Positions 20,182 to 54,389 of a DNA stretch of 64,000 nt are shown piece by piece. Position 1 is the stretch's first letter. Each line of letters opens with the position of its first letter. Under the pieces are notes generated by a model. The model saw only the letters and a list, made by a program, of their open reading frames with translations. It had not been told where the DNA came from and made no database searches. The stretch lies in the NCBI RefSeq assembly GCF_000196235.1, contig NC_008541.1, positions 3,534,001-3,598,000 of the forward strand, given 5' to 3'. Both the position numbers and the translations under genes were made by a program. The stretch comes from Arthrobacter sp. FB24. Lineage in GTDB: Bacteria; Actinomycetota; Actinomycetes; Actinomycetales; Micrococcaceae.

Positions 20182-21876
20182 TTGCATATCTTTCGCGGCG
20201 CTTTGTACCGCTCTCGTGAGCTCGTTTCAAGAGGAGCCAAATCAGCGCTTGGCGCGCTGATCTGCCTGTCATTGTTGTCAGCATCGTTGCTGGCGGGAAT
20301 GCCGGCAGCGCAAGCTGCGGAGCTGGTGGGTGGCGAGACAATCGACCGGACCAATCAGGCCAAAATCGTCGAAGTTTTCAATGGCATCAACGACTTCCGG
20401 GCCTCCCAAGGGCTCAATCCGGTGAATTTCAATGCCACTGTCTCGGAGATGGCCGAAGACTGGTCCGACCATATGGCGGCTTCCGGTAATTTTGTCCACA
20501 ACCCGAATTTCTACACCGATGCCAGGGTCACGGGCCGCTTCGCCGGCGCGGCCGAAATCATCGCAGCCCGTTCGGATGACTGGGCGCAGGGACTGGTGGA
20601 GCAGTGGATCGACTCACCCGGACACAACGCCGTCATGAGCGATCCCAAGCTCACCACCGTGGGCGTAGGGATCACCTATTTGGAGGGCAAACGCAGCGGC
20701 GAGCTGACGTTGTATGGCACGGTGAATTTCTTCACGTTCTGGAATCCGCCGGTTGGGATGTACACCACCGCCCAGGACTTCTTCGACGGCAAGCCCTCCA
20801 TCGACACGGCACAGATAATCACCGTCGATACTGAAGATCCCGTCTTTGACGACGGGCTCAATAAAGTGACCATCCCTGATGCCCAGGGAGTGGACTACTT
20901 TGTGAACCAGGTTCCGACGCCGCCCGGAACCTACGACGCCGTGGTGGGCCGCATGCAGGTCACTGCGACCGCCAAGGCGGGCTACCGCGTCTTCGGGACA
21001 CTGCGTTGGGAGCATGAGTTCCTGGCACCGCCCACGGAAATCGTCCCGATCGCTCCGACGTTTGATGGCGTAACCGGCCGGTTCACTGTTCCTTACATGG
21101 AAGGGGTCCAGTACTGGGTCAACGATTCCCTCTGGGGCTCCTCAACCTTCAGCAGCGAGTGGGACACAACGGTCTATATCCGGGCCGAGGCCCTCAAGGG
21201 CTACAAGCTCAGCGGCACCACGTCCTGGCAGTACTACTTCGCCAAGCCGGACCAGCCGGCTGATCCAGGCCCGGAGACGCCCGCAGAGCCGTCCGGCAGC
21301 TTTACCGATGTCCCTGCAGGAACGCAGTTCGCCACCGAGATCAACTGGCTCGCCAGCCGTGGCATCAGCACCGGCTGGGTAGAAGGCGACGGCTCTGCAA
21401 CGTACCGGCCGCTGACTCCGGTCAACCGGGACGCCATGGCCGCCTTCATGTACCGCCTGCTGGGCGAGCCGCCCTTCAACGCCCCGGCCGCGTCTCCGTT
21501 CGCGGACATGTCCAGCAGCACCAAGTTCTACAAGGAGATCACCTGGCTCGCGGACAAGCGCATTTCCACTGGCTGGGAAGTCAACGGGGCGCGGACGTAC
21601 CGCCCTGTGACGCCCGTCAACCGGGACGCCATGGCCGCCTTCCTTTACCGGCTCGCCGGCCAGCCCAGCTTCACGCCCCCGCTCGCCTCGCCGTTCATGG
21701 ATGTGGATACGAGCAACCAGTTCTACAAGGAAATCACGTGGCTGGCCGCGCAGGGCATCTCCTCGGGCTGGAACGAAGGCAACGGCAAAGCCAGCTATCG
21801 GCCCTGGTCTGCCGTCAACCGCGACGCCATGGCCGCCTTCATGTACCGCTGGAACACAAAATTCGGCCGGCCATGA
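20182..21876 (+). CDS. Secreted CAP-domain protein with three SLH-like repeats
   Basis: 564 residues. The start is taken as TTG 20182 because GGGGG lies 5 nt upstream and a Sec signal peptide follows at once (LGALICLSLLSASLL, cleavage after AQA); ATG 20170 is in frame but removes the GGGGG. CAP/SCP domain at about 57-195 with GHNAVMSDP. Two beta modules follow (about 210-360; VDYFVN, TATAKAGY, LRWEHEF), the same module as in the S8 protease. The C-terminus has three SLH-like repeats (QFYKEITWLA, ISTGW, NRDAMAAFMYR). CAP proteins bind lipids or peptidoglycan; SLH repeats hold proteins to wall polymers. Confidence 0.85.
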   Translation: MHIFRGALYRSRELVSRGAKSALGALICLSLLSASLLAGMPAAQAAELVGGETIDRTNQAKIVEVFNGINDFRASQGLNPVNFNATVSEMAEDWSDHMAASGNFVHNPNFYTDARVTGRFAGAAEIIAARSDDWAQGLVEQWIDSPGHNAVMSDPKLTTVGVGITYLEGKRSGELTLYGTVNFFTFWNPPVGMYTTAQDFFDGKPSIDTAQIITVDTEDPVFDDGLNKVTIPDAQGVDYFVNQVPTPPGTYDAVVGRMQVTATAKAGYRVFGTLRWEHEFLAPPTEIVPIAPTFDGVTGRFTVPYMEGVQYWVNDSLWGSSTFSSEWDTTVYIRAEALKGYKLSGTTSWQYYFAKPDQPADPGPETPAEPSGSFTDVPAGTQFATEINWLASRGISTGWVEGDGSATYRPLTPVNRDAMAAFMYRLLGEPPFNAPAASPFADMSSSTKFYKEITWLADKRISTGWEVNGARTYRPVTPVNRDAMAAFLYRLAGQPSFTPPLASPFMDVDTSNQFYKEITWLAAQGISSGWNEGNGKASYRPWSAVNRDAMAAFMYRWNTKFGRP

Positions 21877-21917
21877 GGCCGCTCGCGTACCGCTCATCAA
21901 CCTTCAGGGGGAACCAA

Positions 21918-23258
21918 TTGCACCTACTCGTTACAAGCCTGCGCTCGTTGCGGAGTCCACGGACCGCACGGAAGGCGGCAGCCGCTCTCACCTGCACCAT
22001 GCTGCTTTCCGCAACGTTCTTTGTTGGCGGTCCGGCCGCCACCGCGGCTCCCGTGGCGCCCGCAACCGAAGCGTCGGATACCCGCCAGGGTGAGCAAGTG
22101 GGAACTCCAGCGGTCGTACCGGCGCCCGCCGCCGCCCAGGCTCCGGCAGCCGGACCACTGCCCGGCGCGCCCACCACCGGAAGCGGACCCGTCACCGAAG
22201 GCACCACGACCGCCGGCGGAACCATCAACAGGGCCAACAGCCAGCAGCTCACCGATGTCTTCAACGCCATCAATGCCTTCCGGGCCACGAAGGGGCTGCA
22301 GGCCGTGACATTCAATGCCACGGTGTCCGAGATGGCCGAGGACTGGTCCGACTACATGGCCAGCAGCGGCAAATTCGAGCACAATCCCGGCTTCCACACC
22401 GATCCGCGTGTGGAAGGCCGCTGGACCTATGCAGGCGAAATCATCGCCGGCCGCCCGGACCACTCCGGAGCCGGTCTGGTGGACCAGTGGATCGCCTCGC
22501 CCGGCCACAACGCAATCATGAGTGACCCCAACTACACCACCATCGGCATCGGCATCGCCCGGCTTTCCGATCCCGACTACCTCCTGGGCACCGTGAACTT
22601 CTTCAATTTCGCGATGCCCCCGGCCGGCTCGTACGCCACAGCTGCGGAGTTCCTGAACGGTTCAGCAGAATCGACCCCGTTCGCGGATGTCCCTTCCGGC
22701 ACCCAGTTCGCGGATGAGATCAACTGGCTCGCCAGCCAGGGCATCAGCACGGGCTGGAAGGAAGCGAACGGAACCACCACCTACCGTCCCGTGACGCCGG
22801 TCAACCGCGATGCCATGGCAGCGTTTATGTACCGCTTGGTGGGCGAACCCCCGTACAGCGCGCCGTACTACTCCTGGTTCGCAGACATCGCTCCCGGGAC
22901 GCAGTTCTACAAGGAGATCAACTGGCTGGCGGAATACGGCATCTCCGGCGGCTGGGATGAAGGCAACGGCCAGTACACGTACCGTCCGCTGACGCCGGTG
23001 AAGCGCGACGCCATGGCCGCGTTCCTGTACCGGCTCATGGGCCAGCCCGCGTTCACCCCCCCGGCCACTTCGCCCTTCGTAGATGTGTCCACCAGCAACC
23101 AGTTCTACAAGGAGATCACCTGGCTGGCCTCCCTGAAGATCTCCACCGGCTGGGATGAAGGAAACGGAAAGTTCTCCTACCGGCCGCTGAACTCGGTCAA
23201 CCGCGATGCCATGGCCGCCTTCATGTACCGCCTGGTCACCAGCCCGGCGAACGGCTAG
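21918..23258 (+). CDS. Secreted CAP-domain protein with three SLH-like repeats (paralogue)
   Basis: 446 residues from TTG 21918, preceded by GGGGGAACCAA. Signal peptide (AAAALTCTMLLSATFF, cleavage near ATAA), a Pro/Ala/Thr-rich linker to about 95, a CAP domain (FNAINAFRATKGL, MAEDWSDYM, SPGHNAIMSDP) and three SLH-like repeats. The CAP domain is clearly a duplicate of the preceding gene's, but the two beta modules are absent. It starts 41 nt after that gene's stop and probably shares its transcript. A surface role in wall remodelling or adhesion is inferred. Confidence 0.85.
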   Translation: MHLLVTSLRSLRSPRTARKAAAALTCTMLLSATFFVGGPAATAAPVAPATEASDTRQGEQVGTPAVVPAPAAAQAPAAGPLPGAPTTGSGPVTEGTTTAGGTINRANSQQLTDVFNAINAFRATKGLQAVTFNATVSEMAEDWSDYMASSGKFEHNPGFHTDPRVEGRWTYAGEIIAGRPDHSGAGLVDQWIASPGHNAIMSDPNYTTIGIGIARLSDPDYLLGTVNFFNFAMPPAGSYATAAEFLNGSAESTPFADVPSGTQFADEINWLASQGISTGWKEANGTTTYRPVTPVNRDAMAAFMYRLVGEPPYSAPYYSWFADIAPGTQFYKEINWLAEYGISGGWDEGNGQYTYRPLTPVKRDAMAAFLYRLMGQPAFTPPATSPFVDVSTSNQFYKEITWLASLKISTGWDEGNGKFSYRPLNSVNRDAMAAFMYRLVTSPANG

Positions 23259-23262
23259 CCGC

Positions 23263-25176
23263 ATGGCTTTAATAAAACGCCCCGCCCGCACCCGCTACCT
23301 CGTTGTGGCAGCCCTCGTGGCCGGGGCGTCAACTCTGGCCGGTCCGGCAGTTCCGGCGCAGGCGTCAGAAGCCTGCGTCCTCGTTCCCAACGGGGCTTAC
23401 ACATGTTTCGACCGCGGCGACGAAGGTGCCGGCGAATGTCCCGGTGGCGCGTGGGTCGGCCCGGACAACGTGGTGCACTACGGTCCTCAACCGGAGCGGT
23501 TCCAGAACTGGCTGTTCGCCCCGTCACCGCTGATTGCGGGCCGTCCCGCCGTCGGAAGGACGCTTACGGTCCAGCCCTGCAACTGGGTTCCGGACCCCGT
23601 CACGCTGCACGTCCAGTGGAAGCGGAACGGGCGTGCCATTCCCGGAGCGACCGGACAGTCCTACACGCTGACCGAGTCGGACCAGGGCAAAGCCATAACG
23701 GTGACCGTGACCGGATCGAAGGCAGCCTTCGCCAGTCTGGCGCGGACCAGCGCACCCACGGCCGTTATTGCTCTCGCTGAGTCATACGTCGATCCGCCGG
23801 CGCCGGAAATCGTCGTCGGAAACTCCGTCACGAGCGTCGGCACGCGGCTGTACGCGACCAATACTTGGCGGTACACCGAGCTGTCATATTCCCACCAGTG
23901 GAAGCGCGACGGTGCAGCTGTGGACGGAGCCACTGGCGAAGAGTACGTCCTGACGACGGCGGACATCGGCCACAAAATGACGGTGACCCGGACGGGCTGG
24001 CGCCCTGGATGGGCCACGGTGACAAAGTCCAGCGCCCAGTCCGACGTCGTGGTGGCGGGTCCCCCGCCGTCGTTCACCCTGCCGCCGGACACCACGGCAC
24101 CGGTGGTGGCTCCCTCCCTTGCCCAGGGAACGTACCTCTACGGCCAGGCACTTTCCCTCGCGGCAGATGAGACCGCTGACATCTTCTACACAACAGACGG
24201 TTCGACGCCGACGCAAAGCAGCGGCCGTTACAGCGGCCCCTTCTCCCTGGACAGGACCACCGAGCTTCGTTTCATCGGCATTGATCTGGCGGGAAATGTC
24301 TCGGCGGCCGCCACCCAGGTTTACTCGATCAAGCCCGAGCCGGTCGTGGACTCCGCCGCCCCCTCAATGTCCATGTCCCTCCAGAACGGGACCTACCTGA
24401 CCGGGCAGCGGCTGGAGATTTCGACTGACGAGGTGGCAGCCGTCTACTACACCACTGATGGAAGCACTCCGACAACCGCCTCCTCCGAGTATTCGTCGCC
24501 GCTCAAATTGGAAGCAAGCGCGGCCTACCGGTTCATTGCCGTTGACACCAGCGGCAACTCGTCCGTTCCGGTGAGCCGAAGCTTCGTAGTACAAACGCCG
24601 GTGTTTGACGACATCGGGCCGGGAACCCAGTTCTTCGCCGAGATCAGCTGGCTCGCCAAGGAAGGCATTTCAACGGGCTGGGACGAACGGGGCTCCCGCA
24701 CATACCGGCCCGTGCAGCCCGTGAACCGGGACGCGATGGCGGCGTTCATGTACCGGCTGGCCGGGTACCCGCCGTTTATCCCTCCGGCCGCATCCCCGTT
24801 TACTGACATCGCACCCGGGAACCAGTTCTACAAGGAAATTACCTGGCTGGCCTCAACGGGAATCTCCACCGGGTGGGACGAAGGCAACGGACGCCGGAGC
24901 TACCGTCCCCTGCAGCCCGTCAACCGGGATGCGATGGCAGCCTTCATGTACAGGTTCGCCGGCAGCCCCGATTTTGGCGCGTCACCCCTTTCGCAATTCA
25001 CGGATGTCGCCGGCTCACCGTTCTACAAGGAGATCAGCTGGTTCGCTGACAAAGGCATATCCACGGGATACACGGAACCGAACTGGACGCGGACCTACCG
25101 CCCGCTGAAGCCGGTCAACCGCGACGCCATGGCTGCTTTCATGTACCGCCTCCACAGCGCCTTCGGCACTAAGTAG
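23263..25176 (+). CDS. Secreted Ig-like/chitobiase-C-like protein with three SLH-like repeats
   Basis: 637 residues, ATG 23263, only 4 nt after the previous stop, so co-translated. Signal peptide (YLVVAALVAGASTLAG, cleavage after AQA). Two Ig-like modules of the VQWKRNGRAIPGATG and HQWKRDGAAVDGATG type (about 85-260). Two CHB_HEX_C-like modules follow (IFYTTDGSTPT and VYYTTDGSTPT), and three SLH-like repeats end the protein. No catalytic domain is seen, so it looks like an adhesive or structural surface protein, perhaps carbohydrate-binding. Confidence 0.82.
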   Translation: MALIKRPARTRYLVVAALVAGASTLAGPAVPAQASEACVLVPNGAYTCFDRGDEGAGECPGGAWVGPDNVVHYGPQPERFQNWLFAPSPLIAGRPAVGRTLTVQPCNWVPDPVTLHVQWKRNGRAIPGATGQSYTLTESDQGKAITVTVTGSKAAFASLARTSAPTAVIALAESYVDPPAPEIVVGNSVTSVGTRLYATNTWRYTELSYSHQWKRDGAAVDGATGEEYVLTTADIGHKMTVTRTGWRPGWATVTKSSAQSDVVVAGPPPSFTLPPDTTAPVVAPSLAQGTYLYGQALSLAADETADIFYTTDGSTPTQSSGRYSGPFSLDRTTELRFIGIDLAGNVSAAATQVYSIKPEPVVDSAAPSMSMSLQNGTYLTGQRLEISTDEVAAVYYTTDGSTPTTASSEYSSPLKLEASAAYRFIAVDTSGNSSVPVSRSFVVQTPVFDDIGPGTQFFAEISWLAKEGISTGWDERGSRTYRPVQPVNRDAMAAFMYRLAGYPPFIPPAASPFTDIAPGNQFYKEITWLASTGISTGWDEGNGRRSYRPLQPVNRDAMAAFMYRFAGSPDFGASPLSQFTDVAGSPFYKEISWFADKGISTGYTEPNWTRTYRPLKPVNRDAMAAFMYRLHSAFGTK

Positions 25177-25181
25177 CCTTC

Positions 25182-25963: not shown

Positions 25964-27565
25964 TTGACACTGCTGGCGCGGCCCAAAACACTGGGTCCGG
26001 TAATCCTCGCGGCCGTTCTGTCGCTGCTGTTTATGACGGCGGCGCCGGCGGCCACAGCGGCAGCCGGAGCCACCATTAGCGGCACGGTATCAGTGCCCGC
26101 GGGCGCGGATGTAAAGAATGCGTTCGTCGCAATTTCGGGCACGAATTACTCCCGCCAGATCGGCGTTTCCGCGGACGGTTCCTACCGCTTTGATGAATTG
26201 GCTGCCGGGTCCTACACGGTCCGCTTTGATTACCAGTCCTGGCCCAGCCCGGACAGTATCCGCCCCGCACCGCAGTGGTACAAGGGCGGTGCCCGTTTCA
26301 GCCAGGCCACCAGCGTCACGCTTGCCGCCGGCCAGAGCCTCGCCGGCATCTCGGGAACGCTCGACGCCGGAGCCTTCATCAGCGGCCGGCTCACCCTGCC
26401 GTCCGGGGTGGACGCTGCGAAGGTCAGGATCGTTGCCAGCGAAACCGGCAATGCCAGCTACCTGCATTCCGCCACGGTGTACGCGCGGGCTGACGGCAGC
26501 TATGTGCTGAACGGGCTTCCGCCGGGCCGGTACCAGCTGTCCTTCTCCTCGCAGGACCGGGCCGGCGGCGGAATCGTCAGCAGCTATTACGGCGGTGCCA
26601 CGGAGGCAGCCGCCACCGTCCTGGACGTGCCGCACCTTGGCGGGATCAACAATGTGGATCAGACGCTCACCGCCGCCGGGGCAGTCGGCGGGACGGTCAC
26701 GGTTCCCGAGGGCATCTCGCCGGCCGGGATCTTCGTCAGCGCCTACCCGCAGGACGGGTCCACCAGCGTGCCCAGCGCCCGGACGGACGCCGGCGGCAAC
26801 TTCGACATCGGCCATGTGAAGCCGGGCACCTACAAGCTCGCCTTTGAAGCATCCGGCCTCGAGCCGCAGTGGTACGGCCAGACCGGCAGCCCCGATGACT
26901 CGCCCGTGCTGACGGTTGACGCCGGTCAGGCGGTCGGAGGGCTGCAGCAGACCATCCAGCTCACTGCCTCCGCGTCGCCGCTGGTGTTCGCCGATGTTCC
27001 CCCGGGCACCCAGTTCGAGGCCGAGATCAACTGGCTGGCCGGCCAGGGCATCAGCACCGGCTGGGTTGAACCGAACGGCACCAAGACGTACCGCCCGCTG
27101 TGGCCCGTGAACCGCGACGCGATGGCGGCGTTTATGTACCGGCTGTCCGGCAAGCCGGATTTCTGGCCGCCGCCCGTCTCGCCGTTCGCGGACCTGGCCC
27201 CGAGCGACATGTACTTCAAGGAGATCATCTGGCTCACGGCCCGCAACGTTTCCACGGGCTGGGTTGACGGCAACGGCACCAGGACGTTCCGGCCCAGCCA
27301 GCCGGTCAATCGTGACGCGATGGCAGCGTTTATGTACCGCCTGGCAGGAAGGCCGGCCTTCGATCCGCCCGCCGTTTCCCCATTCGCAGATGTGACCACG
27401 GACAACGTCTATTATCACGAGATCACATGGCTGGCCGCGCAGGATATTTCCACGGGCTGGAAGGAAACGGACGGGACCAGGACGTTCCGGCCCTACCAGG
27501 CAGTGAACCGCGACGCCATGGCAGCCTTCATGTACCGCTTCGCTTCAAAGTTCACCCCGGTGTAG
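25964..27565 (+). CDS. Secreted prealbumin-like-repeat protein with three SLH-like repeats
   Basis: 533 residues from TTG 25964 (GGGGG 5 nt upstream). Signal peptide VILAAVLSLLFMTAAPAATA. Three copies of an about 95-residue repeat (ATISGTVSVPAGA, ADGSYRFDELAAGSYTVRF, PQWYKGGA, AAGQSLAGI), which look like carboxypeptidase-regulatory/Cna-B beta-sandwiches, then three SLH-like repeats. It is a short relative of the 1518-residue protein at 33967. It probably forms a stalk on the cell surface; no enzyme domain is visible. Confidence 0.83.
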   Translation: MTLLARPKTLGPVILAAVLSLLFMTAAPAATAAAGATISGTVSVPAGADVKNAFVAISGTNYSRQIGVSADGSYRFDELAAGSYTVRFDYQSWPSPDSIRPAPQWYKGGARFSQATSVTLAAGQSLAGISGTLDAGAFISGRLTLPSGVDAAKVRIVASETGNASYLHSATVYARADGSYVLNGLPPGRYQLSFSSQDRAGGGIVSSYYGGATEAAATVLDVPHLGGINNVDQTLTAAGAVGGTVTVPEGISPAGIFVSAYPQDGSTSVPSARTDAGGNFDIGHVKPGTYKLAFEASGLEPQWYGQTGSPDDSPVLTVDAGQAVGGLQQTIQLTASASPLVFADVPPGTQFEAEINWLAGQGISTGWVEPNGTKTYRPLWPVNRDAMAAFMYRLSGKPDFWPPPVSPFADLAPSDMYFKEIIWLTARNVSTGWVDGNGTRTFRPSQPVNRDAMAAFMYRLAGRPAFDPPAVSPFADVTTDNVYYHEITWLAAQDISTGWKETDGTRTFRPYQAVNRDAMAAFMYRFASKFTPV

Positions 27566-27701: not shown

Positions 27702-28442
27702 ATGACATCGAAGTCCGCCAGCACTCGCGAACCTCTTGAACAGCCCCGGGCGGCCAGCGCCGGACTGGCTGGCCAGCTCAGCGATCTTGCCCGGGACCTG
27801 CAGCAGGAACAGGACACCGAAGTCATCCTGAAGATCATTGTCCACGCCGCCCTGGAACTGATCCCGCACGTCTCGGAGGCCTCCATCAGCCTGGTGACCG
27901 GCCGCCGCACGATCGAGTCCCGGGCTGCCTCGGGTGAACTTCCCGTCAAAATAGACGCGCTGCAAAGTGAGATGGGTCAGGGCCCCTGCCTGGAAGCAGC
28001 CTATGACGAACGCGTGGTGCGGGTTCCCGACCTGGCCAACGACAACCGATGGCCAGGCTTCGCGCAGGCGGCTTACAACCTTGGCGCCCGCAGCATGCTC
28101 TCCATCCAGCTCTTCGTGGAGGGAGACAAACTGGGTGCCTTGAACCTTTATGGCCAGGACGTGAACGTCTTCGACGACGAATCGGAACAGATCGCACTCC
28201 TGGTAGCTGCCCACGCCGCCATCGCCTTCTCCGACGCCAAGGAAATCGCGCAGCTGACCCAGGCCCTGGACACCCGGGACCTGATCGGCCAGGCCAAGGG
28301 AATTCTGATGGAGAGGTTCAAGATCACGCCCCAGCAGGCCTTCCTGGTACTGACCAAGGCGAGCTCGGAATCGAACATGAAGCTCAGGGACGTGGCCGAA
28401 CATCTGGCCAGCAGCGGGGAGATTGTCACCCGCCGGAAGTGA
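27702..28442 (+). CDS. GAF-ANTAR regulator 1
   Basis: 246 residues. A GAF sensor domain (about 40-180; MGQGPCLEAAYDERVVRVPDL) precedes an ANTAR RNA-binding domain (about 185-240; LIGQAKGILMERFKITPQQAFLVL). ANTAR proteins bind tandem hairpins in nascent RNA and prevent termination. AGGGAC precedes the ATG. It is the first of three such genes within 4 kb; its target RNA is not evident nearby. Confidence 0.88.
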   Translation: MTSKSASTREPLEQPRAASAGLAGQLSDLARDLQQEQDTEVILKIIVHAALELIPHVSEASISLVTGRRTIESRAASGELPVKIDALQSEMGQGPCLEAAYDERVVRVPDLANDNRWPGFAQAAYNLGARSMLSIQLFVEGDKLGALNLYGQDVNVFDDESEQIALLVAAHAAIAFSDAKEIAQLTQALDTRDLIGQAKGILMERFKITPQQAFLVLTKASSESNMKLRDVAEHLASSGEIVTRRK

Positions 28443-30850: not shown

Positions 30851-31585
30851 ATGGCCAACTCTCCCGAGCACGAACGCGTCCTGGAACTTCAGGACATTAT
30901 TGTGGGCACCCAGAATGTTGCCGAGTTCCTGGAGCGGCTGTCCGTCATGGCGGCTGGTGCCCTGAGCCGTGACACCTCAGCAAAGGTCGAATGCGGCGTG
31001 ACCCTGAAACGGCGGCGCCGGACTTTTACCGTGGCCGGGAGCAGCCCGAAGGCGGTCCTCCTGGACGAGATCGAACAGCGCATCGGGGACGGCCCGTGCA
31101 TCGAGGCGCTCAGGGTCAAGGAGCCGGTGCTGCTGGCCGATGTGGACAAGGATCCTCGCTGGCCGGAATACCGGAAAGCACTGGCGGACGAGGGCTGCCG
31201 CGCCACCCTGGGCGTGCCGCTGGAACTCGGCGAGGATGCCGCCGCAGCGCTGAACTTCTTCGCCTTCGAATCGGGCGTCTTCACCCCTGCCGTCATCCGG
31301 GAGGCCGTGGAGTTCGCGGACCTCGCCGGCGGTGCCGTGCGGCTGTCGGTGAAGCTGGGCACGGCGCAGTCGCTGGCGGATGACCTTGCCGCCGCCATGG
31401 AGAGCCGCACGTCCATCGACCTGGCGTGCGGTGTCATCATGGGCCAGAACCGCTGCACCCAGGCCGAGGCGATGGCCATCCTCACCAAGGTGTCCAGCAA
31501 CCGCAACCAGAAACTCCGCACCGTGGCCGAGGAGATGCTGGCCAACCTCGCCGGCGGCGACGTCCGGACCCACTTCGACGCCTAG
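30851..31585 (+). CDS. GAF-ANTAR regulator 3
   Basis: 244 residues. GAF domain (IGDGPCIEALRVKEPVLLADV) followed by ANTAR (IDLACGVIMGQNRCTQAEAMAIL). Divergent from the ATPase gene, with 156 nt between the starts. The ribosome-binding site is weak (GAGG close to ATG), so a slightly later start is possible. Role by family: transcription antitermination in response to a GAF-sensed signal. Confidence 0.85.
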   Translation: MANSPEHERVLELQDIIVGTQNVAEFLERLSVMAAGALSRDTSAKVECGVTLKRRRRTFTVAGSSPKAVLLDEIEQRIGDGPCIEALRVKEPVLLADVDKDPRWPEYRKALADEGCRATLGVPLELGEDAAAALNFFAFESGVFTPAVIREAVEFADLAGGAVRLSVKLGTAQSLADDLAAAMESRTSIDLACGVIMGQNRCTQAEAMAILTKVSSNRNQKLRTVAEEMLANLAGGDVRTHFDA

Positions 31586-33966: not shown

Positions 33967-36900
33967 CTAGTTAGTTCCGAACTTCGCGTTGTACCTGTAC
34001 ATGAACGCCGCCATGGCGTCCCGGTTCACGGCCTGGACCGGAGCATAGGTCCTGGACCCGTCCCCCGCCGTCCAGCCGGTGGTGATGCCGGTGGACGCCA
34101 ACCAGGTGATCTCCTTGTAGAACTGGTTGCTGGTGGCCACGTCCGTGAACGGGGACACCGCCGGGGGCGTGAACGCGGGCTTGCCGGCCAGGCGGTACAT
34201 GAAGGCCGCCATCGCGTCCCGGTTCACGGCCTGGACCGGAGCGTAGGTCCTGGACCCGTCCCCCGCCGTCCAGCCGGTGGTGATGCCGGTGGACGCCAAC
34301 CAGGTGATCTCCTTGTAGAACTGGTTGCTGGTGGCCACGTCCGTGAACGGGGACACCGCCGGCGGGGTGAAGGCCGGCTTGCCGCGGAAGCGGTACATAA
34401 AGGCAGCCATTGCATCCCTGTTCACGGGCAGCACCGGCCCGAAGGTCTTGGTGCCGTCCGCGGCCGTCCAGCCGGTGCTGATGCCGCTGGACGCCAGCCA
34501 GGTGATCTCCTTGTAGAACTGGTTGCCCGTTGACACGTCAGTGAATGACGGCGCGGGAGCAACCGTGGCGTCCGGTGTGGTTGCCGAGGCCAGCAGCGTT
34601 CCCGTGCCCTTGCCGTCGCCGTAGATCCGCACCTGGACGGTGCTCTTGGCAGCCAGCGCGGTGAGTACGACGTCGGACTTCTGTCCCGCCGCAACCGTCA
34701 CCTTCGGACGGGTCAGGTCCCCGTTGACAATCACGTGGTAATCAACGGAAACGGTCGACGCCGAGTTGTTCAGTGAGACCGCTGCCTCTGCCGGCTTGGC
34801 CGGATCCAGCGTGACGGTTGCCTTCGGATCAGTCACCGGCGCCACCGGGGCGTCCGGTGTGGTTGCCGAGGCCAGCAGCGTTCCCGTGCCCTTGCCGTCG
34901 CCGTAGATCCGCACCTGGACGGTGCTCTTGGCAGCCAGCGCGGTGAGTACGACGTCGGACTTCTGTCCCGCCGCAACCGTCACCTTCGGACGGGTCAGGT
35001 CCCCGTTGACAATCACGTGGTAATCAACGGAAACGGTCGACGCCGAGTTGTTCAGTGAGACCGCTGCCTCTGCCGGCTTGGCCGGATCCAGCGTGACGGT
35101 TGCCTTCGGATCAGTCACCGGCACGGGTGTTGCTGTCCCGTAGGTCAGTTCACCCGCCGGCTTGTCAGATCCAACCGTCGCGCTCACGGGAACTGCTGCG
35201 GTTTCCGTGGTGACGCTGCCGGAGTACAGCTTGCCCAGCTCGGCCTTGCCGTATGGCGGGGTGACAACCAGCAGGTACTTCCCGGTGGTCAGGCCCGTGA
35301 CGCTGAACTTGCCCTGCGCATCGGTGAACCCCATGCGGGTGACCAGCGAGCCGTCCTTGGTGTATGCCTGGACCATCGCTGCGGCAAGCGGGGCCTTGAG
35401 CTTGTCCGTGACGGTGCCGCTGAGGCTGCCGCCCTTGACCAGCGTCCCGTCCTTGCCGGTGATGCTCTGCCCGGTGGTGACTGCAACGGAGCTGGCGGCG
35501 CCAACACCGGCGGACTCGGCCTTGTTCTGGAAGAACTGGGCCTCGGCCAGGGAGGGTCCGCTGGACCGGTTGAAGGCGACTTTGTACGTTCCGGCCGCCA
35601 GACCGGTGACGCTGTAGGAGCCGGTGGTGTCGGAGTAGCCTTCCTTGACCGGGGTTCCGGCACTGTCCAGCACGGTCACGGGGTGCTGCTCGCCGACGGA
35701 GAGTCCGGCCACCTTGCCGCTGATGGTCGCGCCCTTGACCAGCGTGGCGTTGATACCTGTCAGGTCCTGTCCCGCAGTGAGGGGCAGTGCATTCGCAGTA
35801 GCTGCAGTCGCCGCGTTGTTGTACCACTGGTCCACGGCACCGCTGCTGTTGCCGGCGAACCTCACTTTGTAGGAGCCCGTAGGGAGTCCCACCAATTTGT
35901 AGCTGCCGTCCGTGGCCACGCCGGAAAATGCCATGTAGATGGATTTGCCGTCTGCGCTGTCAGCGTTGACGCTGATGTTCCACAGGTTGATACCTGCAGG
36001 TACGGTGACCTTGCCGCTGATGGTGGCACCCTTGGCCAGCAATGCATTGACGCCGGTAAGGTCCTGCCCCGCCGTGACGGCCACGGGGCTGGCTGCGTCC
36101 TCGGTTGCCGCGTTGCTGTACCACTGGGTGAGGGCGCCGCTGCTGTTGGCCGAAAACTGGAGCTTGTAGGACCCGGCCGCCAGGCCCACCAGCTTGTAGG
36201 AGCCGTCAGCCGATACCCACGTGTTGGCCGCGGGGGCCGCCGCAGTACCTGAGGCGGCTGGGTAGGCGGTCACGCTGGTGCTCGAGGCACTGATGCCGGC
36301 CGGTGCGGTGACCTTTCCGCTGATGGTTGCCCCTTTCAGCAGTGTGGCGTTGATATTTGCAACGTCCTGGGCCGCCGTCACGGCAACGGCTGCGGCTGCG
36401 TCGAACGTCGCCGCATTGGTGTACCACTGGCTCAGTGCTCCGCTGTTGTAGGCGGAGAACTGGATCTTGTAGGAGCCGGCCTCAAGGCCCAGGAGGCGGT
36501 AGGTTCCGTCCGCGGCCACGGCGCCCGAGAGCACATAGCCCGACTGGGACGCGGCGGTGTAGGCCGAAACGTAGATCTGCGTGGCGTCAATGCCGGCGGG
36601 CACGGTGAGCTTGCCGCGGATGGACGCACCCTTGACGAGTGTGGCGTTGATGCTGCCCACGTCCTGGCCCGCGGTGACGGTGACAGCGGCGGCTGTTTCA
36701 ATCGTGGCTGAGTTGTTGTACCACTGGGCCAGCGCCCCGCTGTTGGATCCGGAGAACTGGAGCTTGTAGGACCCGGCGGGAAGCCCGTACAGCTGGTATT
36801 TGCCGTCGGCGCCCACCTGGGTGCTGGCGGAATACCTGGCAATGTTGTCGCCCGAGTACGCCGTCACGGTGACGCCGGTGAGGGTGACCCCTGCGGGAGC

Positions 36901-38716: not shown

Positions 38717-40669
38717 ATGATGAGCGTTGCCCAATCTTTGACTTGGAGATTTGTGAAGAATCCTGTCGGCTCACGGACGTTCACCTCGGCGCCGGCGCTT
38801 TCCATTTATGTCATGGCGGGCTCCCTGCTCGCATTCCTGCCCGGCGGCCTGTTCAGGTTTGCCTGGGCCAAGGTGATCGTGGTGCTTCTTGCCGTGGGTG
38901 CAGCCTTATGGGCCGGAAGGGCGAACCCGGCTGCGGGCGGCCGCCTGCCGCGGTCCACTGTGATTCTCCTGGGCGCCGGCTCGGCAGTTCTGTTGCTGGC
39001 CGCATTGCTCTCCCCCAGCCCGGCAGCTGCGCTCCTCGGCAGGTGGCCCCGTTACGAAGGGGCCGTGGTCCTCGCGGTCTACGCTGCCGCCCTGGTGCTC
39101 GGGGCGAAACTCCTCGGCGGTCCGGACGGCACCTCCGGATGGCATGCCTTTCACCGCGCACTGGCGGTAGTGGCACTGCCCCTGGCCGCGATCTGCATCC
39201 TGGAGTCGGCAGGCCTGCGGCCACTGGGCGGTGCAGCTGACCTCAGGCCGGGCGCCACGCTGGGAAACGCGTCGGATCAGGGCCTGGTCGGAGTGATGAT
39301 CGCCGCCGTCCTGGCGCTGCCGTCGCTGCAGCGGCGCAGGACATCCTGGCTGCTGCGGACGGGGTGTGCCGCAGGAGTGCTGATTGCGGTGCTGTCCGGA
39401 TCGCGTGCGGCACTGCTGGCATTGCTGGCGGTGGTCCTGGTCAATGCCCTCGGCGCCTTCCTCACAGGTGGCGGACCGCAGCGAGGAAACAAGCTCACGT
39501 GGAAGGCGTCAGCAGCCGCGGCCGGCTCGCTGGCAGGGCTGGCGCTCCTTGTCTTCCTGATCCCGGGTGCACGGGACCGCTTGTTCTACGGCGAAACCGT
39601 GACCGGCCGCTGGCTCCTGTGGCAGCAAACGGCGCAAATGGCGCAGCAACACCCATGGTTGGGCGTGGGTCCCAGCGGGTTCGTGGATGCATTTCCGGGC
39701 TACCAGACCCAGCAGTGGGCGGTACAGACGGGCGGCGATTTCCCACCGGATTCCCCGCACTCCTGGCTGCTCCAGGCGCTGCTCGCCGGAGGCATCCCGC
39801 TCCTGCTCCTTGCCCTCCTGCTGGCTGCCTCCACCCTCCGCACGGCCGTGGTCCGGATCCGTTCCGCCGATGGAGCCCGCCGGACCGCCCTGGTCGGTGC
39901 GCTTGCCGCCGTGGTGGGTTACGGCGTCGGGCTGCTGACCGGATTTACGTCCCCGGGGACCACGCCGCTGGCCGCCTTCATCTGCGGCGGACTCCTCGCA
40001 ACAACCATCGTCGTTTCGAAGGAAAGCCGGACTTCCAGGCTGCGCGGGTGGTCCGTCACTCCCCCGGCCCGGAAAGCGGCAGCGGCCGCCGGGGCACTCG
40101 CCGTCGTCGGGGGCCTGGTACTTGCCGTACCGGCGGCTGCTGCGGAGTGGCCCATGGCGGCCGGTGTAGGCGCCGCCGGGAGCGGAGACATCGCCGGGGC
40201 ACAGCGGCATTTCCAGGCGGCGCAGGCGCTTCGGCCGTGGGACAGCGACACGGCGCTGCTGGCCGCCCAGGCCTTCGCCGGTCCGGCCGCCGAGGGTGAC
40301 CCGGCAGCGGCGGAGCGGGCTGTGGAGTGGGCCATGGTGTCGCTGGCCAGGACGCCGGAGTCCGTCGAAGCCGGACTGGCGTTGTCCATCGGCTACCTCA
40401 ACAGCGGGGACGTTCCGGCGGCCAAGGAACGCCTGGACGAACTCATCGTCCGCGCCCCGTACACCTCCCAGCTGTATGTTCAGCGCGGCATCGCGGCGTT
40501 CGGCCTCGGCCAGCCGGAGCAGAGCATTGCGGACCTGCAGACCGCGGCCAGCCAGTCGCCGGAGTCGCCGGTTCCCTGGCAGGTGCTGGCCCGCGTGTAC
40601 CAGCGCGTCGGCCAGGACGGCAATGCCATCATGGCGCAGGAAAGGGCCGACCGGCTCGCCTCACCGTAA
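38717..40669 (+). CDS. O-antigen-ligase-like polytopic membrane protein with TPR tail
   Basis: 650 residues. Residues 1 to about 440 hold 10-12 membrane segments with a large loop typical of Wzy_C/WaaL proteins (TGRWLLWQQTAQMAQQHPWLGVGPSGF, PDSPHSWLLQALLAGG). Residues 490-645 are TPR-like helices (AQRHFQAAQALRPWDSD, RGIAAFGLGQPEQSIADLQ). Such proteins ligate or polymerise lipid-linked glycans outside the membrane. Lying beside the SLH genes, it may make the wall glycan they bind; this is inference. Start could be 38717 or ATG 38720. Confidence 0.8.
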   Translation: MMSVAQSLTWRFVKNPVGSRTFTSAPALSIYVMAGSLLAFLPGGLFRFAWAKVIVVLLAVGAALWAGRANPAAGGRLPRSTVILLGAGSAVLLLAALLSPSPAAALLGRWPRYEGAVVLAVYAAALVLGAKLLGGPDGTSGWHAFHRALAVVALPLAAICILESAGLRPLGGAADLRPGATLGNASDQGLVGVMIAAVLALPSLQRRRTSWLLRTGCAAGVLIAVLSGSRAALLALLAVVLVNALGAFLTGGGPQRGNKLTWKASAAAAGSLAGLALLVFLIPGARDRLFYGETVTGRWLLWQQTAQMAQQHPWLGVGPSGFVDAFPGYQTQQWAVQTGGDFPPDSPHSWLLQALLAGGIPLLLLALLLAASTLRTAVVRIRSADGARRTALVGALAAVVGYGVGLLTGFTSPGTTPLAAFICGGLLATTIVVSKESRTSRLRGWSVTPPARKAAAAAGALAVVGGLVLAVPAAAAEWPMAAGVGAAGSGDIAGAQRHFQAAQALRPWDSDTALLAAQAFAGPAAEGDPAAAERAVEWAMVSLARTPESVEAGLALSIGYLNSGDVPAAKERLDELIVRAPYTSQLYVQRGIAAFGLGQPEQSIADLQTAASQSPESPVPWQVLARVYQRVGQDGNAIMAQERADRLASP

Positions 40670-45441: not shown

Positions 45442-48400
45442 CTAGTGGATCAGGCCGTCCAGCCGGAAGAGGAAGGCCGCCATCGCATCGCGGCTGATGG
45501 GCTGCAGCGGCCGGTAGGACCGTGCTCCCCCGGCTTCGGTCCAGCCGGTGGAAATGCCGTTCTCGGCCAGCCAGGACATCTCCTTGTAGAACTGCTGCCC
45601 GGTGGAAACATCGGCGAACGGTGACACGGCCGGCGGGGTGTATTGCGGTGATCCCGCCATCCGGTACAGGAACGCCGCCATCGCATCGCGGCTGATTGGC
45701 TGCAGCGGCCGGTAGGTTCGGCTCCCGTCTGCCTCGGTCCAGCCTGTGGAGATCCTTTGTTCAGCCAGCCAGGCCATCTCTTTGTAGAACTGCTGGCCGG
45801 TCAGGACGTCGGCAAAGGGCGATACCGCAGGCGGCGTGTAGTCCGGTGATCCTGCCATCCGGTAGAGGAAGGCGGCCATGGCATCGCGGCTGATCGGCTG
45901 GAGCGCCCGGTAGCTCCGGCTCCCGTCCGCTTCCGTCCAGCCTGTGGAGATCTTCCGTTCAGCCAGCCAGGCCATCTCTTTGTAGAACTGCTGGCCCGTT
46001 GAAACGTCCGCGAACGGTGAGACGGCCGGAGGCTCGTAGGCTGCCGCGGTGGTTTTGAACGTGGCTGTCCATTCCGCTGCGGCCCCTTCGGCCCGGATGT
46101 AGTCCGCCTTCGCCCGCGCGGTAACCGTGACTGTTCCGGTGCCTGGATGGGTCCCGGCTGTCACGACGTTACCGCCCACGAGATAGTCGACGCCCTCCGT
46201 CGAGGGCACAGTGTAGGTGTCGTCTGCAGTGCCGTCCCTGTCGGAGAAGACGACGGCGGCAGGTGTCACCGAATAAGGGGTCGCCTTGAAGGTGGTGCTC
46301 CATTCGGCGATAGCGGCTTCGGCAAAGACGTAGTCGGGCTTGGCGCGAGCGGTGACGGTGACCGTCCCGGTGCCCGGGTAGTCGCCCGCACCGGTGAGGA
46401 TGCCGGCCACGAGGTACTCGACACCGACGGTGGTCGGAACCCTGTAGGTGTCCTCGGCAGTGCCATCCTTGTCGGTGAACACGGCGGCGGCAGGCGTCAC
46501 CGAGTAGGGCGTCGCCTTGAACGTGACAGACCATTCGGCTGTGACACCCTCAGCCAGGACATAATCAGCCTTGGCCCGAGCCTTCACCGTGACCGTCCCC
46601 GAACCTGGGTAGGTTCCGGCTTCGACTGTATTGTCCCCGAGCAGGTATTCGACGCCCTCGGTCGCCGGAACTGTATAGGTGTCCTCGGCGGTGCCGTCCT
46701 TATCGACAAATACGACGGCGGCGGGAGTCGCCAAATAGGGCGTCGCCTTGAAGGTGAAGGACCACTCCGCGGTCGCGCCCTCGGCCAGGACGAAATCCGT
46801 CTTGGCCCGCGCCCTCACAGTGACTGTCCCGGATCCCTGGTGCGTTCCTGCTTCGACGACGGTGTCCCCGAGGAGGTATTCGATGCCTTCCATCGACGGA
46901 ACCGCGTAGGTGTCCTCGGCAGTGCCGTCCTTATCGACAAATACGACGGCGGCAGGGGTCACCGCATAGGGCGTCGCCTTGAACGTGGCGCTCCACTCCG
47001 CGGTCGCGCCCTCAGCCAGGACGTAATCGGTCTTTGCCCGAGCCTTGACTGTCACAGTTCCCGACCCAGGATGAGTCCCAGCCTCAACGACCGCTTCGTC
47101 GAGCAGGTACTCAACACCCCCGGTCGCAGGAACTGTGTAGGTGTCCTCGGCAGTGCCGTCCTTATCGACAAATACGACGGCGGCAGGGGTCACCGAGTAG
47201 GGCGTCGCCTTGAACGTGGTGCTCCACTCCGCGGTCGCGCCCTCAGCCAGGACGTAATCGGCCTTGGCTCGTGCTCGCACGGTAACTGTGCCGGTGCCCG
47301 GATGAGCCCCAGCCTCAACGACCGCGTCGCCGAGCAGGTACTCAACACCCTCGGTCGCAGGAACCGTGTAGGTGTCCTCGGCAGTGCCGTCCTTATCGAC
47401 AAATACGACGGCGGCAGGGGTCACCGAGTAGGGCGTCGCCTTGAACGTGGCGCTCCACTCCGCGGTCGCGCCCTCAGCCAGGACGTAATCGGCCTTGGCT
47501 CGTGCTCGCACGGTAACTGTGCCGGTGCCCGGATGAGCCCCAGCCTCAACGACCGCGTCGCCGAGCAGGTACTCAACACCCTCGGTCGCAGGAACCGTGT
47601 AGGTGTCCTCGGCAGTGCCGTCCTTATCCGTGAACACGACGCCGGCAGGCGTCACCGCATACGGAGTCGCTTTGAAGTTGAAGGACCACTCCGCCGCGGC
47701 GCCCTCGGCTAGAACGTAATCCGTCTTGGCCCGGGCCTTCACCGTGACCGTCCCCGACCCCGGATGCGTCCCAGCCTCAACGACCGCATCGCCGAGCAGG
47801 TACTCAACACCCTCGGTCGCAGGAACCGTGTAGGTGTCCTCGGCAGTTCCGTCCTTATCGACAATTACGACGGCGGCAGGGGTCACCGCATACGGAGTCG
47901 CTTTGAAGTTGAAGGACCACTCCGCCGTGGCGCCCTCGGCCAAGACATAATCAGCAGTGGCCCGAGCCCTCACGGTGACGGTCCCCGACCCCTGATGCGT
48001 CCCAGCATCGACGACCGCGTCGGCCACCAGGTACTCAACGCCGTCCGTCACCGGGACCGTGTAGGTGTCCTCGGCAGTCCCGTCCTTATCGGTAAACGTG
48101 ACGTCAGCCGGCGTAGCGCGATTCAACCGGACCACATCAACAGTTCCAATGGTCTGGAACCCCGTGGACGTATTGCCCAGCGTGTCATCCAGGGGATACA
48201 GGTTGGCCTTCCATTGACCTGTCGCCGCATCCTGCGGGATCGTGATCGACCGCTCCCAGACACCATCCTTGGCATCCCCCGAAACAAGCGCCAAAGCACC
48301 AAAGCCTTGGGTCTGACCCGACGCATCGTGCCGCAGCAGCGCATACGGAGCCTCCGCCCCCGTCTGATCCGTCAGTCGCACGGAGACGACCACGGTCGCC

Positions 48401-50505: not shown

Positions 50506-50689
50506 TCGTGCATCCTAGGGGAAGCGCGTCGCCCCCCAAGAGACGGAACGCGGAATCAAAGACAGCGAACCGCATGTCCCGCTTGATTGTAACAACAAGT
50601 TTATTTATTACTTGCCGACCACACACTCGCCTGAGAGTGCGGGCACAGCGTCCGTGATCCCCTCGGGTCGAGCGTTATCCGCCTCCCCT

Positions 50690-50930
50690 CACGACTGGTT
50701 GCGCACCTGTACATGAACGCTGCCATCTGGTCGCGCAGGACGGCCGTGCCCGGCCGGAAGGTCTGCGTGATGCCATTGGCGTTGTTGGCGACGGCCGCCA
50801 CCGTGCCGGCGCCCCTGCTGACCGGCCATGCGGCGGGCAACCGGAGGCCGACGACGGCTCCCCCAGTCCGCTCAGTGCCTGGCCCGCGGCTCCTCCCACT
50901 GCACGAGAGAGTCCGCGTCTCAATGTGGCT
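50690..50930 (-). pseudogene. Relic of a second S8-protease/SLH gene
   Basis: Across frames on the minus strand run DSLVQWEEPR (compare YYSLQWDMF of the intact protease), then LRLPAAWPVSRGAGTVAAV (compare MRMPRAWSVTKGSG), ANNANGIT (compare HVAGTVAAIANNGQGVT) and directly RDQMAAFMYR, the end of an SLH-like repeat. Frame changes and a large internal deletion make this a decayed copy. It occupies part of the 494-base gap 50506-50999. Confidence 0.6.
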
Positions 50931-50999
50931 CAGTGTTGTTTTCACGGCCGGAAAGCCTTTTAGTTGGTCTTCTGGGTAGTCCGTTTTTTGGGGGTAGCG

Positions 51000-53900
51000 G
51001 TGTTTTCTCGCGGTGTCGCGCGTTTGTTGGCTGTGGTCTTGTTTGTTGTCGCACCGGCTTTGGGGGTGTTGCCAGCGGCTATAGCGGCCGATCCTGTGGT
51101 GGAGGATGTGGTGTCGTTCGCTGATGTGCCGGACTCGTCCCAGTTCCACAAAGAGATCGCATGGCTGGCTTCGGAAGGCATTTCCACCGGGTGGGATGTC
51201 GGCGGCGGAGTGCGGCAGTACCGTCCACTGGACAGTATCGCCAGGGATGCGATGGCGGCGTTCCTTTACCGGAAGGCCGGATCGCCGGCGTTCACCCCGC
51301 CGAATCCGTCTCCGTTCACAGACGTGGCGCCCGGGGCGGCGTTTTATAAGGAGATCACCTGGCTCGCCTCGAAGGGCATTTCCACCGGATGGGACGTCGG
51401 GGGCGGCAAGCGCGAGTACCGGCCGTGGAACCCGATCGCCCGCGATGCGATGGCGGCGTTCCTGTACCGCTTTGACCAGTCCCCGCCGTTCACCACCCCG
51501 GCACAGTCCCCGTTTGTGGATGTCGTCGCCGGCGGCGCGTTCTATCGGGAAATCACCTGGCTGGCGTCCTCCGGGATCTCCACGGGCTGGGACGTCGGAG
51601 GCGGCGCGCGCCAGTACCGGCCGCTTAGCGGGATCGCCCGGGACGCGATGGCCGCATTCCTGTACCGGTACTCCTCGGACAAGGTCCCGGCGGACCCTGC
51701 CGCGCCGGCGGCCGGGACAATGACGGTGGCCCCGGACGTTGAGATCCTCGACGCGGCACAGCTGGACACGGCACAGCTCTCGGCCGGTGTCCTGACGCTC
51801 CCCTGGGACAAGGCCTCGGAGATCCGACCCAACGATGTGCTTGTGGCCGGTGTCACGACGGGAACCCCGGAGGGATTGCTGGTTCGTGTGGTCCAGGTCG
51901 TCCGGGACCCGGGCGGGGTGACGGTCGTGAAAACCAGGCCCGCCACCTTGACGGAGGCTGTGGTGTCCACCTCGGGACTCCTTGAGCTCAGCGGGTCCCC
52001 GGAGTGGTCCACGTTCACTCCGGAACCGGACGTCACCGTCACCACACCGCCGGCCGGCGCGGCTCCTACTTCCGGAATCCCACAGCCGGAGGCCACGGTC
52101 GAAGGAGAAGTGTTCTCCCAGTCGTTCTCGGTGAAGAAGACGCTCAAGGCCGAACTTGGGACCGACCAGCTCCATGGCGGCGGCTCCATCACCGTGGAGT
52201 CCACCATTAAGGCCGCGGCGAGAGCAAAGATGACCTTCGAGGCCGGGTTCCTCCAGCTCAAAGAAGCATCTGTGGTGCTCACGCCGTCCTTCACGGCCCA
52301 GCATTCCGTGAGCGTGAGCGGCAGCCTGGAAGGCAAAGCCAGCGCCAAACTGGGCGTACTGAAGGCCATCTTTGTTTACCCCGGGGCGGTCCCCGTGGTG
52401 GTCACTGCGGAGGCGGAAGTTGCATTGAACCTCACCGCCACCGGTGAAGCGGAAATCTCCTTCGTCACCGCCCAAAGCATTTCGTCGGATGTCGGAATCA
52501 AGTACCGCGACGGCTCCTTCAACTTGATCAACACCAAGCCGCAGACGGCGGGCGTGCAAAACGACGTCAAGGCGACCGCTTCCCTGACCGCTGCCCTGTC
52601 CCTGGACTTCGATGCCACCATCAAGCTTTACGGCGTTGCGGGGATCACCTTCGGCGCCGGCCCGTACGTCTCAGCAGAGATCGCGGTCACCACCAGCAAC
52701 GGAAATCAGACATGGTCCTGCCCCATCGAAATCGGCTTCGCCTCCCGCCTCGGAGCCGTCGCCGGCATCGAAGTGATGGGATTCAAACTTGGCGAATGGA
52801 GAGACGTCAACACGCTCACGTGGAATCTCGCAGAACCGAACCCCTGCGAAGGAACGCCCGTCCAAGCACCGGGAACATCGACGGCACCGCTTGCCATCAC
52901 AACCGCCGAACTACCCACAGGAACGGTAGGGCAAGCCTACTCGGCAAGCCTGAACGGGTCCGGCGGCACGAAACCCTACACGTGGACCATTACATCCGGG
53001 TCCCTTCCCCCGGGGCTTCGCCTCGAGCCCTCCAACGGCAGCATCACGGGCACGCCCACTACCGCAGGCGTGCAGCCCCTGGTGGTCGCCCTGACTGACA
53101 GCCACGGTTCTAGGACAGCCCTCAGTGCACCCCTTACCGTCGCACCAGCCGGACTCGCAGGCATCAAAGCTGTAAGTGCAAGTCATTCAGCGGCATATGC
53201 CCTACGGAACGACGGCACAGTCTGGGCGTGGGGGCGGAACAATGCAGGGCAACTCGGAAACGGCGCCACCACCGACTCTGCCGCGCCCGTCCAGGTCACG
53301 GGAATTACTGACGTGGAAAGCGTCGCCACCACAAGCGGCGGGGCCGTTTACGCGAAGAGGACAGACGGAACCGTCTGGGCGTGGGGAAACAACGCCTACG
53401 GTCAGCTGGGCAACCGAACCACCACAAATTCCGCTGTCCCCGTTCAGGTGACGGGACTGAGCGATGTTCAAACTGTTACTGCCAGCGAGGAAGAATCAGC
53501 TTTTGCAATCAAAGCGGACGGCACCGTGTGGGCTTGGGGCGCCAACTGGGGCGGCCAGCTGGGAGCCGGCCACTACGCGAACCAGTCGTCCCCAGCTCAG
53601 ATCCCGGAACTCACGGGTGCCAAGAGCATTACGACTGGAAGCGGAGTCTACGTGGCTTATGCGGTCATGGCGGACGGTTCCGTCCGGGCGTGGGGGGACA
53701 ACTCCTCAGGCAAGCTTGGCAATGGCAGCACCGCAACTACTTCCCCCGTGCCGGTCCAGGTCGTCGGACTCACTGACATTACGAGCGTCAAGAGTTCCGG
53801 CGGAGCGGCGATTGCGCTGAAACTTGATGGCACGGTCTGGGCATGGGGTTCCAATGGCTGGGGAGAGCTAGGAAACGGCTCCTACGGAAGCTACTCCTCG

Positions 53901-54389
53901 GTACCCGTCAGGGTGAACGGGCTCTCAGACGTGGCCAGCATTGAAGCGAAACGCTCCGCATCCATTTACGCGCTAAGGAAGGACGGCACAACCTGGGCCT
54001 GGGGAGCAAACCTGCAAGGTGAGCTAGGGATCGGGAGCACCACGCCTTCGCCAACCCCTGTTCAGGTCACGGGCCTGTCCCAAACCCTGAGCATCATCAC
54101 GAACGGCTATTCCTCAGTCCATGCCCTGCAAAAAGACGGCACGGTGTGGGCCTGGGGATGGAACGGCTATGGTCAGCTGGGCAACGCCACGACAACGGAT
54201 TCATGGGTTCCTGGGAGAGCCCAAGGGATCAGCGACGTCCGCCAACTCATGACGACAGATGGTTCGGCGTACGCCCTAAAAGCCGACGGAAGTCTCCTCG
54301 CCTGGGGTAACAATGAGTTCGGCCAACTTGGCATCGGCACAACCACAAACGCAACAGTCCCGGTCCTGGTCGGCAGGCAGTCCGGCTAA
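51000..54389 (+). CDS. Secreted RCC1-repeat protein with N-terminal SLH-like repeats
   Basis: 1129 residues from GTG 51000, which has GGGGG 5 nt upstream and a signal peptide (LLAVVLFVVAPALGVLPAAIA) directly after; a TTG at 50964 is in frame but has no such site. Three SLH-like repeats (about 38-215) are N-terminal, unlike the six relatives. A beta-rich domain (about 370-620; SFSVKKTLKAELGTDQL) is followed by a putative-Ig (He_PIG) domain (LPTGTVGQAYSASLNGSGG) and about eight RCC1 repeats (DGTVWAWGNNAYGQLGNR) forming a beta-propeller. Probably a surface binding protein. Confidence 0.87.
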   Translation: MFSRGVARLLAVVLFVVAPALGVLPAAIAADPVVEDVVSFADVPDSSQFHKEIAWLASEGISTGWDVGGGVRQYRPLDSIARDAMAAFLYRKAGSPAFTPPNPSPFTDVAPGAAFYKEITWLASKGISTGWDVGGGKREYRPWNPIARDAMAAFLYRFDQSPPFTTPAQSPFVDVVAGGAFYREITWLASSGISTGWDVGGGARQYRPLSGIARDAMAAFLYRYSSDKVPADPAAPAAGTMTVAPDVEILDAAQLDTAQLSAGVLTLPWDKASEIRPNDVLVAGVTTGTPEGLLVRVVQVVRDPGGVTVVKTRPATLTEAVVSTSGLLELSGSPEWSTFTPEPDVTVTTPPAGAAPTSGIPQPEATVEGEVFSQSFSVKKTLKAELGTDQLHGGGSITVESTIKAAARAKMTFEAGFLQLKEASVVLTPSFTAQHSVSVSGSLEGKASAKLGVLKAIFVYPGAVPVVVTAEAEVALNLTATGEAEISFVTAQSISSDVGIKYRDGSFNLINTKPQTAGVQNDVKATASLTAALSLDFDATIKLYGVAGITFGAGPYVSAEIAVTTSNGNQTWSCPIEIGFASRLGAVAGIEVMGFKLGEWRDVNTLTWNLAEPNPCEGTPVQAPGTSTAPLAITTAELPTGTVGQAYSASLNGSGGTKPYTWTITSGSLPPGLRLEPSNGSITGTPTTAGVQPLVVALTDSHGSRTALSAPLTVAPAGLAGIKAVSASHSAAYALRNDGTVWAWGRNNAGQLGNGATTDSAAPVQVTGITDVESVATTSGGAVYAKRTDGTVWAWGNNAYGQLGNRTTTNSAVPVQVTGLSDVQTVTASEEESAFAIKADGTVWAWGANWGGQLGAGHYANQSSPAQIPELTGAKSITTGSGVYVAYAVMADGSVRAWGDNSSGKLGNGSTATTSPVPVQVVGLTDITSVKSSGGAAIALKLDGTVWAWGSNGWGELGNGSYGSYSSVPVRVNGLSDVASIEAKRSASIYALRKDGTTWAWGANLQGELGIGSTTPSPTPVQVTGLSQTLSIITNGYSSVHALQKDGTVWAWGWNGYGQLGNATTTDSWVPGRAQGISDVRQLMTTDGSAYALKADGSLLAWGNNEFGQLGIGTTTNATVPVLVGRQSG

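Follow-up and report, generated by a model that had tools for sequence, protein, structure and literature searches.

How might the products of seven neighboring genes that share one triple repeat be held at the cell surface of Arthrobacter sp. FB24? The genes lie in a stretch of 64,000 nucleotides of this 5.07-Mb genome (positions 3534001–3598000 of contig C4, NC_008541.1), which we call the window, and their products are numbered P0001 to P0007 along it. We consider it probable that the repeats form S-layer homology (SLH) trimers, that these bind a pyruvylated sugar of the wall prepared by a CsaB-like enzyme, and that the proteins are displayed on the surface in this way. In the proposed mechanism, the three repeats of each exported protein would fold into a three-pronged spindle, the grooves of which would hold the pyruvylated sugar of a wall polymer non-covalently. 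The pyruvate would be added by a CsaB-like pyruvyltransferase encoded elsewhere in the genome beside a family-2 glycosyltransferase. The window would then represent a surface-protein island, in which CAP, subtilase, prealbumin-like stalks, RCC1, and chitobiase-like C-terminal domains are carried on one common anchor.

The original prediction described a triple repeat in seven proteins, 21 copies in all. This count was borne out, as a degenerate DNA motif encoding NRDAMAAF matched 21 times in the window, compared with 0.05 matches expected from shuffled sequences, and each of the seven translations contains exactly three repeats of ∼57 residues. When aligned, the 21 repeats have a mean column identity of 72% and 13 invariant columns. 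Across the whole genome, we found 33 full repeats in 11 proteins, the window's seven and four more; the window also contains a single half repeat, a relic. Repeats of the same protein share a mean identity of 0.70, those at the same position in other proteins 0.62, and those at other positions 0.60; a position-specific ancestry of the three repeats was rejected because these values leave little position signal.

Comparison with Pfam confirmed the proposed likeness to SLH domains: all seven proteins score above the gathering cut-off of 20.8 bits for PF00395 (SLH). Scanned singly, 18 of the 21 repeats matched SLH at E ≤ 0.01, and no other family was matched. The structure prediction of one triplet, on which the original prediction had made its case depend, returned an SLH trimer for P0002 (22671–23237), and a fold search with this model retrieved the Sap and SpaA structures, indicating that the predicted triplet adopts the trimer fold of that type. 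SLH repeats are commonly found as tandem triplets at one end of exported proteins, an arrangement present in 7/7 window proteins, with export judged by eye. The Pfam matches and the fold prediction led us to reject an SLH-unrelated repeat family having only the RDAMAAFMYR end in common. A phmmer search of P0002 against solved structures retrieved no SLH chain and only a CAP protein (E 0.023), and a profile of 48 triplets found only the SLH-annotated entries 8BZ2, 8BYM, and 8BYS, weakly (E 0.004 to 0.015), showing that Sap and SpaA are out of reach by sequence alone. These data support the conclusion that the 21 repeats constitute seven SLH trimers and represent a distinct actinobacterial type.

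We compared the putative binding pocket with that of SpaA using repeats of named species, 288 distinct ones at 72 loci; positions follow the numbering of the SpaA paper, with GISTG and RDAM as reference points, and are consistent with an alignment to SLH chains. In SpaA, pyruvate is contacted by SLH-Arg43, by a lysine, and by the main chain of SLH-28 and SLH-Gly29, with SLH-Trp13 stacking against N-acetylmannosamine (ManNAc) (PMC6081394). SLH-Arg43 and SLH-Gly29, the latter being the residue most conserved among SLH domains, are present in all 21 window repeats and each in 287/288 distinct repeats. These two residues and the predicted trimer fold are what the FB24-type repeats share with Sap (3PYW, 6BT4) and SpaA (6CWC and others). 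The arginine of the TRAE motif is kept, whereas its glutamate is replaced by alanine in 287/288 repeats; the motif also varies among accepted members, with TVEE and TRAQ reported for SpaA (PMC6081394). The place of SpaA Lys130, which forms the pyruvate salt bridge, is taken by alanine in 286/288. In the Trp13 register, no repeat has an aromatic residue (0/288) and 186 have glutamine; one place on, Phe, Tyr, or His occurs in 287/288. As the repeats lack the Trp13 of the pyruvyl-ManNAc SpaA/Sap subtype, we do not assign them to it. The repeats also differ in their RDAMAAF end and in Trp19, which is new relative to SpaA and present in 288/288. The Trp-rich core noted by the original prediction is therefore real, but it falls inside the SLH fold.

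The loop after Gly29 is longer than in Sap and SpaA in most repeats: its spacing to the proline of YRP is 11 residues in 237 of 287 repeats, 10 in 24, and 7 in 23, and the four SLH proteins encoded outside the window include both short-loop and long-loop forms. The predicted P0002 triplet has short strands in this stretch, which suggests a small hairpin inserted in the loop lining the groove. With Gly29 and Arg43 conserved and Trp13 and the loop altered, pyruvate recognition may persist while the sugar-facing parts of the pocket have changed.

The original prediction saw no csaB gene. This holds for the window, in which PF04230 has no match, but a search of the genome found one clear match elsewhere (C4:1361469–1362428, E 1.4e-33, 117.7 bits against a cut-off of 25.3); a second match, at E 0.2, is under the cut-off. 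The best NCBIfam model of the enzyme is S_layer_CsaB (TIGR03609), with 60.6 bits against an equivalog cut-off of 213.1, and for this reason we name it CsaB-like only. A glycosyltransferase-2 gene follows it directly, the gene of a 1650-residue SLH protein starts 3.4 kb on, and an SLH polysaccharide-deacetylase-like protein is encoded ∼15 kb before it. A glycosyltransferase-like gene likewise adjoins the CsaB-like gene in 6/7 regions of relatives (not in the congener G062), one region having been scanned with Pfam. Two of the ∼1300-residue SLH genes beside CsaB-like genes were Pfam-scanned, and both encode subtilases. The enzyme thus resembles CsaB in its PF04230 score, its best NCBIfam match, and its linkage to SLH genes, and differs in its low S_layer_CsaB score, its length of ∼500 residues, and its usual position next to a glycosyltransferase-2-like gene. 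The R-Y-H that is invariant among the CsaB-like proteins may correspond to R306/H308 of Paenibacillus CsaB (PMC10435577).

To relate this enzyme to the repeats, we surveyed 149 genomes of the family. The number of candidates scored per genome was limited (44 for the repeat, 22 in the class sample, 10 for the dedicated enzyme), so that repeat counts are lower bounds and a match may have been overlooked in some genomes. The SLH repeat was found in 44/149 genomes and PF04230 in 80/149, the latter in 41/44 genomes with the repeat versus 39/105 without (Fisher 5e-11). Because members of PF04230 also act on other polymers, this co-occurrence is in itself of little weight. In a sparse class-wide sample, which makes for a weak test, PF04230 occurred in 6/7 SLH genomes versus 116/289 (p 0.02).

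A profile for the dedicated enzyme was built from eight CsaB-like proteins adjoining SLH genes, with a match cut-off of E ≤ 1e-10. This CsaB-like family was found in 24/149 genomes, 21/44 with SLH versus 3/105 without (1e-10), figures that favor SLH genomes, since all eight profile members are SLH-linked and seven of the eight genomes they come from are inside the sample, besides the window genome. As relatives are not independent, we permuted within genera, using the members whose genus was printed. In the seven genera with the enzyme and both SLH states, 19 co-occurrences were observed (p 2.5e-5).

Physical linkage points the same way. Of 40 SLH-genome regions surrounding the top PF04230 gene, 5 of them shorter than 19.9 kb, 16 contained an SLH triplet gene, compared with 1.3 expected (1.8 by a harsher reckoning; p < 1e-12). 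Linkage was found in 14/20 regions with the dedicated enzyme and in 2/20 without it. In G356, a genome of another family of the same order, the SLH gene ends ∼35 bases before the CsaB-like gene on the same strand. In G062, the MFS and MBL genes and two genes upstream make the island recognizable, and the CsaB-like gene is flanked there by the MBL gene on one side and a P0007-like gene on the other. The three triplets of the P0007-like SLH genes of this congener (C1:3397771–3398334, 3404296–3404859, and 3413725–3414288; L145, L191) have equal scores repeat by repeat, as if recently copied. Together, the predicted trimer, the Pfam matches, and the CsaB-like gene with its linkage support, on computational grounds, the SLH-related attachment system that was originally proposed.

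Several results weigh against a pyruvylated wall ligand made by the CsaB-like enzyme. The pocket lacks the TRAE glutamate, Lys130, and an aromatic residue at Trp13. The csaB-like gene lies ∼2.2 Mb from the window and misses the equivalog cut-off, and 24/40 regions are unlinked. Three of the 44 SLH genomes (G002, G080, and G109) have no PF04230 match, as does one of the seven in the class sample (G339), and 23/44 are without the dedicated family. Conversely, the dedicated enzyme occurs without SLH in 3/105 genomes (G048 weakly, G068, and G144), and in G144 its GDEA motif reads GHEA. The G144 gene (L187:9923–11446) has a neighbor that resembles purA by eye, as does its counterpart in G032; decay after loss of the SLH proteins is possible.

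These results would also fit SLH trimers that bind a wall polymer through an acidic group different from pyruvate, for instance a uronic acid or a teichoic phosphate, with the pyruvyltransferase serving a capsule. The altered pocket with its putative inserted hairpin and the SLH genomes that lack the dedicated family or, in three cases, any PF04230 match speak for this explanation, as do the 39/105 family genomes that have PF04230 but not the repeat, since Pfam SLH was likewise absent from 39/39 of them. We nevertheless judge it unlikely, because Arg43 and Gly29, the pyruvate contacts in SpaA, are kept and because the dedicated enzyme is physically linked to SLH genes and co-occurs with them within genera. 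That the modules mainly link the proteins with one another or with an exopolysaccharide that is pyruvylated and secreted, in a biofilm matrix rather than the wall, is suggested by a Wzy_C ligase/polymerase-like gene between P0005 and P0006, with a relative in the island of the congener, and by the glycosyltransferase adjoining the csaB-like gene, but this appears very improbable, as the solved trimers of the SLH fold (Sap and SpaA) bind wall-linked polymers (PMC6081394), and the polysaccharide deacetylase cargo of the SLH protein adjoining the csaB-like gene in G030 suits a wall site.

If the trimers do bind a pyruvylated sugar, which sugar would it be? Every ligand-bound SLH structure retrieved by the fold search, whether of Sap or of SpaA, contains pyruvylated ManNAc. 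PF02350, which we take to be the family of the UDP-GlcNAc 2-epimerase MnaA, had no match in the FB24 genome in a search that was positive in 11/14 controls. Two WecG/TagA-type matches are present in this genome, a family that also transfers other sugars. PF02350 is found in 102/149 family genomes and is absent from 11/44 SLH genomes, including 7/21 of those with the dedicated enzyme. In Paenibacillus, MnaA makes UDP-ManNAc available (PMC11464976). The lack of a PF02350 match suggests that in FB24 the pyruvylated sugar serving as ligand may not be ManNAc, and pyruvylated galactose, glucuronic acid, and Kdn are recorded for Promicromonospora walls (PMC6801904). Based on these gaps, the lost Trp13 aromatic, and the hairpin inserted at the groove, we tentatively propose, at somewhat less than an even chance, an SLH anchoring with a switched sugar, in which a reshaped pocket would recognize a non-ManNAc pyruvylated sugar provided by a dedicated actinobacterial pyruvyltransferase-glycosyltransferase pair. 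Against such a switch, ManNAc could come from an enzyme outside PF02350, or the neighboring Phe could replace Trp13.

The proteins that would share this anchor belong to five cargo classes, as P0001 and P0002 both carry CAP and P0004 and P0005 are both CarboxypepD_reg/prealbumin-like; the suggestion that the cargo differs every time was thus not upheld. The view that it is N-terminal holds for six proteins with a C-terminal SLH triplet and fails for the gene at 51000, P0007. A signal-peptide-like stretch was read by eye near the start of all seven translations, which suggests secretion. On the plus strand, P0001 (20065–21876, open reading frame from the first possible start) carries CAP and a triplet at 21292–21855. 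P0002 (21738–23258, plus strand, taken likewise) also carries CAP before its modeled triplet; its first possible start overlaps P0001, and the real start is further in. P0003 (23206–25176, plus) has two CHB_HEX_C_1/Fn3_assoc stretches and a triplet at 24592–25155, and P0004 (25931–27565, plus) has CarboxypepD_reg/SdrD_B-like stretches and a triplet at 26978–27544. P0005 (33967–38523, minus) contains 11 CarboxypepD_reg stretches and a triplet at 33988–34554, two repeats of which are 96% identical compared with about 58–91% in other proteins, suggesting recent duplication or conversion. P0006 (45442–50505, minus) is a subtilase (Peptidase_S8) with a long repeat stalk and a triplet at 45457–46023. 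P0007 (50964–54389, plus) begins with its triplet (51108–51674), followed by He_PIG and RCC1 repeats. The relic half repeat between P0006 and P0007 (50703–50783, minus) covers profile positions 31–56 only and is apparently the remnant of a decayed SLH gene. Sortase anchoring was rejected, as the translations, read by eye, have no LPXTG-type tail after the last repeat; no sortase search was made.

Other genes accompany the island. The Wzy_C O-antigen ligase/polymerase-like protein (38717–40669, plus) has a TPR tail and is 40% identical to its relative in the congener's island. Two GAF-ANTAR genes lie mid-island (27702–28442 and 30851–31585). At 56182–61285, a GDSL lipase-like gene is accompanied by two genes that look by eye like acyltransferase-3 (57694–59760 and 60191–61285), making O-acetylation of a wall polymer beside the island possible.

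The same repeat occurs in actinobacterial entries named S-layer homology domain-containing protein (Arthrobacter, Pseudarthrobacter, and Microbacterium), database names given without genomic context, and a triplet 98% identical is found in a protein of Arthrobacter sp. LjRoot14 (P0009). Another trimeric non-covalent wall anchor, CWB2, has a proposed Arg-based recognition of an acidic group and differs in the surroundings of its core helices (PMC6081394); CWB2 had no match at E ≤ 1 in the seven window proteins. Reviews already state that SLH occurs in Micrococcales and Actinobacteria (PMC5817068, PMC6801904), and a published network places CsaB-like sequences mainly in Firmicutes and Cyanobacteria (PMC6801904). 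A literature search by title and start of abstract, with most subscription journals outside it, found no description of SLH-pyruvyltransferase coupling in Arthrobacter, Micrococcaceae, Micrococcales, or Actinobacteria and no Arthrobacter wall pyruvate, the sole match to all terms concerning indole-pyruvic acid.

The repeats belong to a known domain family but take an unusual form, and there is good genomic evidence that they work with a pyruvyltransferase, as in Bacillus. According to the 2019 review, the pyruvylated sugars of actinobacterial wall polymers serve as a taxonomic marker and have no known function (PMC6801904). If the coupling is true, pyruvylated actinobacterial wall polymers would be protein anchors, SLH pockets specific for two different sugar chemistries could be compared, and a defined route of surface protein display would be available in a soil genus. 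A switch of sugar, if true, would likewise give these pyruvylated wall polymers a function.
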